The notes under the pieces were generated by a model. It made no database searches. It saw only the letters and a list, made by a program, of their open reading frames with translations, and was not told where the DNA came from. Positions 56,605 to 59,328 of a stretch of DNA of 64,000 nt are shown one piece after another. How positions within the stretch are numbered: the stretch's first letter is position 1; the number at the start of each line of letters is the position of its first letter. Made by a program: the position numbers and the translations under genes. The DNA is taken from NCBI RefSeq assembly GCF_018304765.1, contig NZ_CP072642.1, positions 2,075,819 to 2,139,818 of the forward strand, read 5' to 3'. The DNA is from Chloracidobacterium sp. N. Lineage in GTDB: Bacteria > Acidobacteriota > Blastocatellia > Chloracidobacteriales > Chloracidobacteriaceae.

Positions 56605-57339
56605 ATGTCGGAAGCCAAGCCCAAAGATGTCGTCGGATGGACGTTGCCCATGGCTGAAGCCCGGCTTGGCGATCTCGCCTGGCAACGCGAAGCGCGCCCG
56701 GATGAGTTTCGCCGGGCTGTGTTTGGCGAAGGAGCCAAACGGCTGTGGGTCACGGCTGACGGCTGGCAGCTTGCCGGCGGCCGCCTGAGCGCCCGTTATG
56801 CGCGCATCCAGACGGCGCTGGCCGATGTGGCTACGCTGATGGTTTATCCGACGGCCAGCCCCGACCGGTTGCCCGTCTTTGCATGTGAGTGGGTCATGCT
56901 GGGCGACCGCGCCCACGTGCTCGTGCTCGACGTTGAATGCCTGGGCAACGCAGCGGACCGCCTGCGGGAACGCGCCCGGTCTGTCCTGATGCCGCTCCAC
57001 GCCCGCTATGCCGACGCCCTGCCCCTGCCGGACGACCTGCCGCCGTGGTTTGCCGAAATTCGGGAAGCCTGGGCGCTGTTCACTTCCGGCGACCTGACGC
57101 GGCTCGCCGTGATGCAGCAGGCGTTTGAAGCCTATCTGCAGGCCACGGCCGGGAACCTTTACCGGCCGGAGCTGGCCCATGCGCAGGCCGGAGACGAACA
57201 TCCGGCCGTAACCGCCTACAAACAGCACCACGCCGCCCATTCGCCGGGCTATGCCCTGCTGGCGCCCAAGGCCGGCGAAGTCTGGACGCGGGCCTTTCTC
57301 TGGGAATGGCACTTCGGCCCGCTGCATCCGCCAGCCTGA
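56605..57339 (+). CDS. Ferredoxin-dependent bilin reductase-like protein
   Basis: A 244-residue protein that resembles the FDBR superfamily (PcyA, PebA/B, HY2, RCC reductase). A central segment RLSARYARIQTALADVATLMVYP then SPDRLPVFACEWVMLGDRAHVLVLDVECL matches the pattern of a basic strand, a P...D.P.FG-type strand and a following D..P/L strand. The C-terminus YKQHHAAHSPGYALLAPKAGEVWTRAFLWEWHFGPL matches the YxxYxxxxxPxxxLLxxxFGxxWxxxFLxxxLF form. The catalytic Asp/His pattern cannot be confirmed by eye. Alternative: a chlorophyll-related reductase of the same fold. It is followed by a V4R gene. Confidence 0.5.
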   Translation: MSEAKPKDVVGWTLPMAEARLGDLAWQREARPDEFRRAVFGEGAKRLWVTADGWQLAGGRLSARYARIQTALADVATLMVYPTASPDRLPVFACEWVMLGDRAHVLVLDVECLGNAADRLRERARSVLMPLHARYADALPLPDDLPPWFAEIREAWALFTSGDLTRLAVMQQAFEAYLQATAGNLYRPELAHAQAGDEHPAVTAYKQHHAAHSPGYALLAPKAGEVWTRAFLWEWHFGPLHPPA

Positions 57340-57361
57340 AACTCCCTGCCTGAAACTCCCT
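57334..57361. repeat. 14-base tandem repeat at the end of the FDBR-like gene
   Basis: GCCTGAAACTCCCT occurs twice in tandem, the first copy covering the stop codon. It suggests a small recent duplication. The following gap to 57505 holds no recognised promoter or hairpin. Confidence 0.7.
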
Positions 57362-57505
57362 GGCCACACCCGACGCCCTGCCTTTTATCGGCTTGGTTTC
57401 CGGCCGGGCAGGTGTGGTATCTTCCGGTTTCCGATGTACCCTTGACCTGTACGCTCTGCCGCTCCCGACTTCTGCGCGGCGCGTTTCTGACGCCGCCCAC
57501 GGACT

Positions 57506-58099
57506 ATGACTGCACATGTTGCCCTGCCATTGCCGGTGGATCATTCGCCTGCCATGTGGTGGCCAGCCGACCTGGTTCTTGCCCTGCACCGGACACTCCG
57601 CCAGCGTCTGCCGGATGATGTGGCCCGCACGCTCTATCGCCTGGGCCGGTTTACGGGAGCACGTCTCGCCCGCGAGCAGGCCTGCGACCCGGATGATGTG
57701 CATCCGACCGGAGCAACCCCGGCGTCCATCAGCCGCCGCCTGCAGGTCTGGGACGAATGGTTTGCCAATGCCGGCTGGGGCCGCTTTGATGCCATCCCGC
57801 TGGGCCCGGCGACGGTCATCAACCACTACGACTCGCCCATCGCCATGGCGCTGCGCACGGAGGGACCGGCCGACAGCCCCGTGGATGACTTCTTTGCCGG
57901 TCTGTTCGCCGAACTTCTGACCCAACAAACCGGGCAGACCCAGGAAAGTGTGGAAATCAGTTGCCTGACCAGCCACGCCCACTACTGCTGTTTTGTCGTT
58001 GGTGAAGCCGGCATCGTCCGCAAGGTGTATGCCTGGCTCACCTATCACCTCGCACCCCACGACATTCTCAAGCGTCTCGCCGACGAGACGGCCCAGTGA
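57506..58099 (+). CDS. V4R-domain protein (BchJ-like)
   Basis: A 197-residue protein. It begins with a helical part (LHRTLRQRLPDDVARTLYRLGRFTGARLARE) and ends in a V4R-type domain (QESVEISCLTSHAHYCCFVVGEAGIVRKV), where the usual form is EIxCxxxGxxxCxFxVG. V4R proteins bind small hydrophobic ligands; BchJ of bacteriochlorophyll synthesis is one member. The role here is unknown. It follows an FDBR-like gene and is followed after seven bases by a small Pro-rich gene. Confidence 0.68.
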   Translation: MTAHVALPLPVDHSPAMWWPADLVLALHRTLRQRLPDDVARTLYRLGRFTGARLAREQACDPDDVHPTGATPASISRRLQVWDEWFANAGWGRFDAIPLGPATVINHYDSPIAMALRTEGPADSPVDDFFAGLFAELLTQQTGQTQESVEISCLTSHAHYCCFVVGEAGIVRKVYAWLTYHLAPHDILKRLADETAQ

Positions 58100-58106
58100 A
58101 CCAGCC

Positions 58107-58514
58107 ATGGCGCGTTTTACGGAAACCGATGAGGCCGCCCAGCTTTTGCAGCAGATTCTCAGCATGCCCACGGACGCACGGCCGACCTACCCCGGCAGCG
58201 CCCCGGAAGCTCCGGCAGACTGGGATGAACACGCCACCAACGATGCCCAGTCTGCGGACGAAGCCGTAACCCTGCCCTTGGTCACCGGGCCAACACCGGA
58301 CACTCCGGCCGAACCGGCGCCGGCCCCGCCGCCGCTGCCGGCGGCTTCGGAAACGGTCATCCGGGAACTCGTCACCACCCATGCCGGGCAGGTACAACTG
58401 ACGCTGCGCACCTCTGCACCGACCTTGCCGGGAAGTTCAGACGCGGAAACCGTGGCGGCTTTCTTCCGGCGTGTCGTGCGCCCGCTTCCCAACGCCAACC
58501 TTTCTGCCATGTAG
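58107..58514 (+). CDS. Small acidic Pro/Ala-rich protein
   Basis: A 135-residue protein of unknown family. MARFTETDEAAQLLQQILSMP is a short helix, the middle (about 25-80) is acidic and rich in Pro and Ala and probably disordered, and the end (VIRELVTTHAGQVQLTLRT, then DAETVAAFFRRVVRPL) may fold. It sits between V4R and ParA genes with gaps of seven bases on each side, so it is a good candidate for an adaptor of the ParA protein. Confidence 0.6.
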   Translation: MARFTETDEAAQLLQQILSMPTDARPTYPGSAPEAPADWDEHATNDAQSADEAVTLPLVTGPTPDTPAEPAPAPPPLPAASETVIRELVTTHAGQVQLTLRTSAPTLPGSSDAETVAAFFRRVVRPLPNANLSAM

Positions 58515-58521
58515 GGTTGTC

Positions 58522-59328
58522 ATGCCGAAAACGCTGGCCGTAGTGAGCCTCAAAGGGGGCGTCGGAAAGACGACGACCTGCACGAATCTGGCCGCTTATG
58601 TGGCGGCGATGGGCATTCCGACGCTGCTCGTGGACCTCGATGTACAAAACGGCGTGCGGTTTGGCGTCGGGCTGGACGACTATGCCGGCCTCACCCTCGA
58701 AGATGTCCTGCTGCATCAGGGACGCCCTTCCGAGGCGCTCGTGCTCACCAACCGCTCGGAGTTGTCGGTCGTGCTTTCCGGCCGCTTCACCAGCGACCAC
58801 GCGCTGGAAAGTTATGAACGCAACTTTGAGCAGGATGTCACCTGGCTGGCCCGCCGGCTGCCGCACTTCACTACGCCGGACTTTTCGCCCCAGCTCGTGC
58901 TGCTGGACACCCCCGCCGGCCTCGGTGCTGTAACAACCAGCGCCATCGTGGCCGCCGATGGCCTCATCCTGCCCATCCAGTGCGAGCCACTGAGCCTGCG
59001 CACCCTGCCGCCGCTGTTGCGCCGTATTGTCCAGCTCAAGGCCCAGTACAACCCGCGCCTGACCATCGAAGGCATCCTGCTGACGATGTATGACGAGCGC
59101 CAGGGCGCGGCAACCGATGTCGTCCGGCAGGTGCGCGAAGCCTTCCCCGGCGAACTCGTCTTTGACACCGTTATCCCGCGCCACGAGGAACTGTCCCTGT
59201 CGTTTGCCGTCGGCGCTCCGGCTGTCACCCTCAAGACCCGCGCCGCCGGCGCACAGGCTTATATTCAGCTTGGGCGGGAAATCATCATGCGGCTGCCGGA
59301 AGAAGTCGGCTACGCCATGTCGGGCTGA
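58522..59328 (+). CDS. ParA/Soj-like ATPase (orphan)
   Basis: A 268-residue deviant Walker A ATPase: SLKGGVGKTTTCTNLAAYVA near 8-28, LLVDLDVQNGV (Walker A' Asp), LVLLDTPAGLGAVTTSA (Walker B) and ILLTMYDERQGAATDVVRQVREAF with VFDTVIPRHEELSLSF as in Soj/ParA. No parB is adjacent. ParA proteins place chromosomes, plasmids or protein assemblies; in this setting a cargo linked to the V4R or Pro-rich partner is possible. ATG 58522 (MPKTLAVV) is chosen over an upstream extension. Confidence 0.85.
   Translation: MPKTLAVVSLKGGVGKTTTCTNLAAYVAAMGIPTLLVDLDVQNGVRFGVGLDDYAGLTLEDVLLHQGRPSEALVLTNRSELSVVLSGRFTSDHALESYERNFEQDVTWLARRLPHFTTPDFSPQLVLLDTPAGLGAVTTSAIVAADGLILPIQCEPLSLRTLPPLLRRIVQLKAQYNPRLTIEGILLTMYDERQGAATDVVRQVREAFPGELVFDTVIPRHEELSLSFAVGAPAVTLKTRAAGAQAYIQLGREIIMRLPEEVGYAMSG

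Follow-up and report, generated by a model that had tools for sequence, protein, structure and literature searches.

ATPases of the ParA/MinD family position protein cargos; their partner proteins are diverse and are thought to contact the ATPase via a positively charged, disordered N-terminus, and McdA-McdB and PpfA/ParC are two such systems (PMC10241942). In the BcsD-BcsP/BcsH-BcsQ scaffold of cellulose secretion, the Pro-rich BcsP recruits BcsD and works with BcsQ (PMC11470070). Ferredoxin-dependent bilin reductases (FDBRs) of the pre-PcyA type, found together with V4R proteins and with globins that bind bilin, have been described by Rockwell, Martin and Lagarias (2023); the function of the phycobiliprotein-related globins of these bilin-globin (BBAG) clusters is stated there as unknown (PMC10151467). 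Here, we analyzed one 64,000-nucleotide stretch of the genome of Chloracidobacterium sp. N, a photosynthetic acidobacterium (the window; contig NZ_CP072642.1, positions 2,075,819 to 2,139,818). Between positions 56605 and 59328 of the window, four rightward genes encode one FDBR, one V4R-domain protein (V4R1), one Pro-rich acidic adaptor and one ParA-type ATPase without ParB. We propose, with a probability of roughly 45%, that ParA, the adaptor and V4R together serve to scaffold or to position an assembly that handles bilins, comparable to BcsQ-BcsP-BcsD or McdA-McdB.

Comparison with described systems

The published pre-1 FDBR/BBAG/V4R cluster has several parts in common with our system, namely one FDBR without the Glu76, His88 and Asp105 of PcyA, pairs of V4R proteins, one Fe-S protein and one bilin-binding globin (PMC10151467). 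Different from that cluster, the window FDBR is located ~1 Mb away from the BBAG cluster of its genome, next to a further V4R protein, the adaptor and ParA. ParA is not named in the accessible main text of PMC10151467, as judged by word search, and the word 'linker' carries other senses there. The slr0144-slr0152 operon of Synechocystis contains homologous V4R, Fe-S and globin genes; it is without FDBR according to PMC10151467, and ParA is unmentioned in the accessible parts of both sources (PMC13326532, PMC10151467).

Like McdA-McdB and PpfA/ParC, the locus combines a ParA without ParB, a low-complexity neighbor and a neighborhood that hints at the cargo (PMC10241942); different from them, its putative cargo is an assembly of bilin and V4R proteins, one conserved DNA-binding Arg appears to be lost, and the system is predicted from gene content. 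With BcsD-BcsP/BcsH-BcsQ it shares one protein of similar fold, one Pro-rich partner and one ParA-like ATPase (PMC11470070), but the window ParA scores below the BcsQ cut-off. In the literature searched, outside of which most subscription papers fall, no ParA-adaptor module beside an FDBR/V4R/globin set was found. The FDBR/V4R/globin set is already known, and the novelty lies in the ParA/adaptor organization with its probable new cargo; also new are the ParA-type ATPases that we observed downstream of one type of BBAG cluster (type A, see below) in one planctomycete order. The original prediction had presented an actively positioned, tetrapyrrole-linked cargo as a new kind of system; the tetrapyrrole half of this claim was already in print (PMC10151467), and the active positioning is what we infer.

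Identity of the four genes

The genome is 3.7 Mb in size and consists of two contigs, of which contig 1 carries the cluster. All four open reading frames are intact; the gaps between them are 166, 7 and 7 bp in order, in exact agreement with the original description of four rightward genes whose last three are seven bases apart. ParA is flanked by the adaptor on one side and by one response-regulator gene, assigned by eye, on the other side.

The first gene (56605..57339, plus strand) encodes a 244-residue protein, which is an FDBR by Pfam, by PDB profile and by fold. It scored 45.4 bits (E 9.9e-12) against Fe_bilin_red (PF05996), the cut-off of which is 31. The orthologues of G001, G003, G004, G006, G007 and G008 also exceed this cut-off, and that of G002 lies just below it with 30.5 bits. 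The PF05996 survey of the class gave 8 of 162 genomes, which is a lower bound; the first pass missed the genome of the window itself (G000) and G005. The ten-row profile A3 matched Guillardia bilin reductase (PDB 6qwq) at 2e-20 and PcyA at 5e-18. The AlphaFold2 (AF2) model of the protein has a pLDDT of 73.4 and a pTM of 0.72, and the 40 PDB chains that match it at E≤0.001 consist entirely of FDBR and red chlorophyll catabolite reductase (RCCR) structures. Both the Pfam score and the predicted structure, which shows the alpha/beta/alpha sandwich of FDBRs, bear out the FDBR-fold reductase proposed earlier; this fold had been named as a check on the original prediction.

As read from the HMM alignment, Arg64, Thr77 and Glu95 occupy the columns of PcyA Glu76, His88 and Asp105, respectively. 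Pre-1 enzymes are without these three PcyA residues, and Thr in the His88 column is a feature of pre-3 enzymes, which retain Asp105 (PMC10151467). Unlike pre-3, the window FDBR has not kept Asp105; judged by these columns, it is probably a pre-PcyA enzyme of the pre-1 group described in that paper. In phmmer searches, it scored 53-63 bits against the FDBRs of planctomycete clusters, compared to 12.8 bits against the best PDB FDBR.

The second gene (57506..58099, plus strand) encodes V4R1, which is 197 residues in length. V4R1 itself scored 24.3 bits against Pfam V4R (PF02830), below the cut-off of 31; its orthologues in G007 (L028) and G008 (L099) are above it, with 35.5 and 39.1 bits, respectively. 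The AF2 model of V4R1 has a pLDDT of 81.9, and its best PDB matches are the V4R sensor domains of MopR/PoxR/DmpR (1.4e-7), followed by Bet3/TRAPP, MJ1460 and BcsD. In the literature, V4R domains are described as binding hydrophobic molecules of small size (PMC13326532). The protein had been described as a V4R protein like BchJ; the fold, the orthologues and the tree given below uphold the V4R identity, but the likeness to BchJ is weak (E 0.014), and V4R1 was rejected as BchJ proper.

The third gene (58107..58514, plus strand) encodes the adaptor. Its 135 residues include 17 Asp/Glu and 19 Pro as well as 7 Arg, and Lys is absent, which matches the small acidic protein that had been predicted. 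Neither Pfam nor NCBIfam gave a match above cut-off, and the adaptor is present with conserved ends in all 10 genomes of the family. The N-terminal conserved segment is ET..AA.LL-like and is preceded by one or two basic residues (four genera); the C-terminal one reads E[ST]V..FF[RQ]R. Among 121 proteins from parts of the same genome, the motif [ST][AV]..FF..[ILVM] occurs three times, once in the adaptor and twice in the linker of the BBAG cluster; because the motif was derived from the adaptor and linker themselves, this count shows its rarity elsewhere and is not an independent proof.

The fourth gene (58522..59328, plus strand) encodes the 268-residue ParA. In phmmer searches, it matched the structures of partition ParA/Soj proteins with E-values of 1.2e-34 (PDB 8ray) and 1.5e-33. 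The deviant Walker A motif KGGVGKTT, including the signature Lys, is present in all nine module ParAs, and the Walker A′ and Walker B columns are retained with small changes. Four ParA matches with E<1e-8 are found in the genome; the other three each adjoin one Pfam ParB_N gene, whereas the window ParA does not, so that the earlier description as an orphan ParA stands and a role as ParABS component was rejected. A fifth match (G000:C1:2273751) is weak, with 20 bits. With columns assigned by spacing, the position of the DNA-binding CcParA residue R195 is Arg in eight of the nine module ParAs and Lys in that of G009.

Conservation in Chloracidobacterium and relatives

The FDBR-V4R-adaptor-ParA order is kept in all seven genomes of the genus; conservation of this order had been named as a check on the original prediction. 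In G001, the ParA match contains one internal TGA, and the called protein stops at 261 residues. A second V4R protein of the module, V4R2, is missing from the genus genomes. FDBR was found in 9 of the 10 family genomes and in 10 of the 14 order genomes. Among the sister genera, G007 has the order FDBR-V4R1-V4R2-adaptor, followed by the contig end; this genome is 90% complete, and it gave no close ParA match, the best being 35% identical. In G008, the order is V4R1-V4R2-adaptor-ParA, with a ParA of 56% identity, and the FDBR gene lies on a different contig.

Among the 14 order genomes, bchL was detected in eight, namely the genus genomes, that of the window included, and G007; G008 and G009 thus retain parts of the module without this phototrophy gene. 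In both genomes V4R-adaptor and ParA are kept (in G008 also FDBR), and neither gave matches to the PF00502 globin, PF01126 or bchL.

In the phylum, ParA matches at ≤1e-45 were obtained in 6 of 396 genomes, with six candidates scored per genome. The ParA of the sixth genome, G472 (42% identity), was rejected as a module member, its neighbors being unrelated.

Relationship to the bilin-globin cluster

The BBAG cluster of the same genome (L031:7898-12882) is located ~1 Mb from the window locus and is of the published BBAG cluster type. It contains a phycobiliprotein-like globin and a V4R pair, in the order flavin reductase, 2Fe-2S ferredoxin, V4RA, linker, globin, V4RB and Ser/Thr kinase. The globin matches Pfam Phycobilisome at 1.4e-21 and has a CVRD motif, and the nearest relatives of V4RA, 97% identical, are on Chloracidobacterium contigs. 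In the V4R tree (29 rows; drawn midpoint-rooted and with long-branch warnings), the module V4R2 joins V4RA with support of 89/89, and V4R1 falls on the V4RB side. With moderate support from this tree, the module V4R pair seems to be a duplicate of the BBAG-cluster pair.

In the globins examined, the Cys of the CxRD motif is present in Chloracidobacterium and G012, and it is missing in G007 (L122), Opitutales (L124) and the planctomycetes; covalent bilin binding is therefore perhaps not general among BBAGs.

Recurrence of ParA-type genes in planctomycetes

A contig search with V4RA returned 12 loci. Several planctomycete loci have the order kinase-FDBR-heme oxygenase-Fe-S-V4RA-linker-BBAG-V4RB-kinase, and three of them continue to ParA-like genes. 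In a sample of the planctomycete phylum, this V4RA type occurs in 2 of 392 genomes; in one planctomycete order, V4RA was found at 1e-50 in 19 of 102 genomes. We examined 25 clusters, comprising the order list and, from outside that list, L148 and L152 (the latter from the phylum sample), and divided them by V4RA into type A (nearest to L127; n = 13) and type B (nearest to L149; n = 12). FDBR is visible in eight clusters of type A and in no cluster of type B.

Three type A clusters (L152, L154 and L175) could not be evaluated for ParA, as their contigs end before the ParA position. Of the 10 evaluable ones, eight (L148, L150, L151, L172, L173, L187, L188 and L189, from seven genomes) have one ParA-type gene, ParA1, in the same orientation as V4RB and 0.3-3.3 kb downstream of it, followed by ParA2 where the contig continues. 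The 12 type B clusters are all without ParA, as are the nine that remain when L176, L178 and L181, with <3.3 kb past V4RB, are set aside. The Fisher p-value for type A versus type B is 1.4e-4 with 12 type B clusters and 7e-4 with nine, both ignoring shared ancestry.

In all eight ParA1 proteins, the P-loop Lys is replaced by Arg (KGGTGRTT), and the five aligned ParA2 proteins have KGGVGKTT. Judged by these P-loops, ParA1 is possibly an inactive partner of an active ParA2 ATPase.

In six of eight cases, F-x-W or F-x-W-D/E forms the C-terminus of the protein preceding ParA1, which is a small protein in four and a kinase in two. Among 359 proteins called in these loci, 15 have [FI]-x-W(D/E) ends, of which eight are BBAG-cluster linkers, six are pre-ParA1 proteins and one is unrelated. 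This common tail suggests that the linkers and the pre-ParA1 proteins may dock on one and the same partner.

In the ParA tree, which includes five of the nine module ParAs and five of the eight planctomycete ParA1 proteins and carries long-branch warnings, the module ParAs (99/99), ParA1 (100/99) and ParA2 (80/93) form separate clades. The separate ParA clades of the two phyla imply either two or more origins of the pairing or a replacement of ParA.

Proposed function and alternatives

Our proposal draws on the conserved gene order within the genus, the module parts in sister genera, the V4R paralogy, the recurrence in planctomycetes, the F-x-W tails and the BcsD/BcsQ precedent. The data show the gene identities, the FDBR and V4R folds, the conservation, the V4R paralogy (with moderate support) and the presence of ParA-type genes at one type of V4R/globin cluster in a second phylum; beyond them, we infer a joint complex, its motif-partner pairs, an action of ParA on it and the bilin substrate. 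The cargo would consist of V4R, a small-ligand-binding fold, and FDBR, probably together with the unlinked BBAG/V4R/ferredoxin assembly. The aromatic C-terminal FF segment of the adaptor would dock on V4R (or the globin), its N-terminus would be presented to ParA, and the ATPase cycle of ParA would then scaffold, space or partition the assembly. A broader version, in which ParA was recruited independently in two or more phyla for the active positioning or partitioning of one assembly of FDBR, V4R pair, bilin globin and aromatic-motif linker, as a positioned tetrapyrrole body with parts related to the phycobilisome toolkit, is doubtful.

Several observations weigh against the proposal. FDBR is present in the examined stretch of four of the eight ParA-bearing planctomycete loci (L151, L172, L173 and L189); the evaluable type A clusters L153 and L174 have no ParA, and L187 and L188 are without an F-x-W tail ahead of ParA1. 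Co-occurrence of FDBR, BBAG and the module is incomplete, as G008 has no BBAG and G009 has no FDBR; in G009, V4R1-V4R2-adaptor is followed by another gene, and ParA (55% identity) is on another contig. No ParA was found near the BBAG clusters of Chloracidobacterium, Opitutales or G012 in the stretches examined. In hhalign comparisons, the adaptor and the BBAG-cluster linker families matched with probabilities of 1.6-3.9%, which is not significant, and a profile-based homology of these families was rejected. None of the 14 genomes of the order gave a match to canonical heme oxygenase (PF01126), which was detected in three control genomes; this weakens the assignment of a bilin substrate to the predicted FDBR; the missing heme oxygenase of Chloracidobacterium is mentioned in PMC10151467. 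Lastly, in the column of the second conserved DNA-binding arginine, CcParA R224, also assigned by spacing, all nine module ParAs have Glu or Gln and the chromosomal ParA of the same genome has Arg, which would weaken a plain nucleoid-gradient model; the DNA-binding determinants of such ATPases are often poorly conserved (PMC7229837).

The apparent loss of this canonical DNA-binding Arg also fits a static scaffold, in which V4R oligomerizes along the Pro-rich adaptor to form a structure in the cytoplasm and the ParA-like ATPase stabilizes or activates this structure without dynamic positioning, similar to BcsD-BcsP-BcsQ. Three BcsD structures (8pkd, 7zzq and 3aj2) match the V4R1 model with E-values of about 4e-5 to 3e-4, although V4R sensor domains match it better. 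The best NCBIfam match of ParA is BcsQ (TIGR03371; 1.3e-22), and the Pro-rich BcsP, which recruits BcsD and works with BcsQ (PMC11470070), offers a counterpart of the adaptor; however, 80.5 bits is far under the TIGR03371 cut-off of 157.85, so that ParA was rejected as BcsQ proper, and its best PDB relatives are ParA/Soj. Taken together, we consider the purely static scaffold rather unlikely. ParA with a small partner had originally been read as the pattern of cargo-positioning systems; the adaptor ends conserved throughout the family, the planctomycete recurrence and the F-x-W tails speak for this pairing, but its active positioning part may be supposed at most, and a static scaffold fits about as well.

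The four genes could also be mere neighbors, with FDBR and V4R serving bilin metabolism, adaptor and ParA serving another cargo, and the gene order decaying slowly. Synteny within the genus indeed extends to the wider neighborhood beyond the cluster, and the separate contigs of FDBR and the V4R-ParA module in G008, like the FDBR-less module parts of G009, would be expected from it. However, FDBR adjoins V4R in another genus (G007) as well, the gaps of 7 bp are short, the module V4R proteins are paralogous to those of the BBAG cluster, and ParA of another clade recurs at V4R/globin clusters in another phylum, all of which make this explanation improbable.

Relatives with the ParA fold have NifH-, CooC- or ArsA-like uses. 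Loading of a ligand or cofactor on V4R or FDBR by ParA as such a maturation or delivery NTPase would suit the ligand binding ascribed to V4R domains, but it is slightly less probable still, given that partition ParA/Soj proteins provide the best PDB matches, NifH/ArsA-type profiles match weakly, the ParA sequence has no CxxC motif, and the protein encoded next to it combines low complexity with conserved ends.

Returning to the scaffolded or positioned bilin assembly, ParA-type genes and similarly tailed adaptors in two phyla suggest that BBAGs form such an assembly. The module names the genes to tag and to delete, and it gives a testable clue to the function of these bilin proteins. If true, the proposal would add a pigment-related cargo to the ParA systems, and it would be relevant to the origin of phycobiliprotein assembly.

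Additional genes in and near the clusters

Beside the FDBR and flavin reductase of G012, two long proteins (L030:1450-5555) contain KCSRDLxYI-like stretches, and the first of them has no Pfam match; the globin profile did not support them as multi-globins (E 0.17 and 0.43, filters off). In the Chloracidobacterium BBAG cluster, the kinase is followed by one HtrA-like protease gene, assigned by eye, and the same order is present in L119 and L120. In two planctomycete clusters, one PhyH-like oxygenase gene, also assigned by eye, is located between V4RB and the kinase (L148:4737-5528 and L154:1403-2191).

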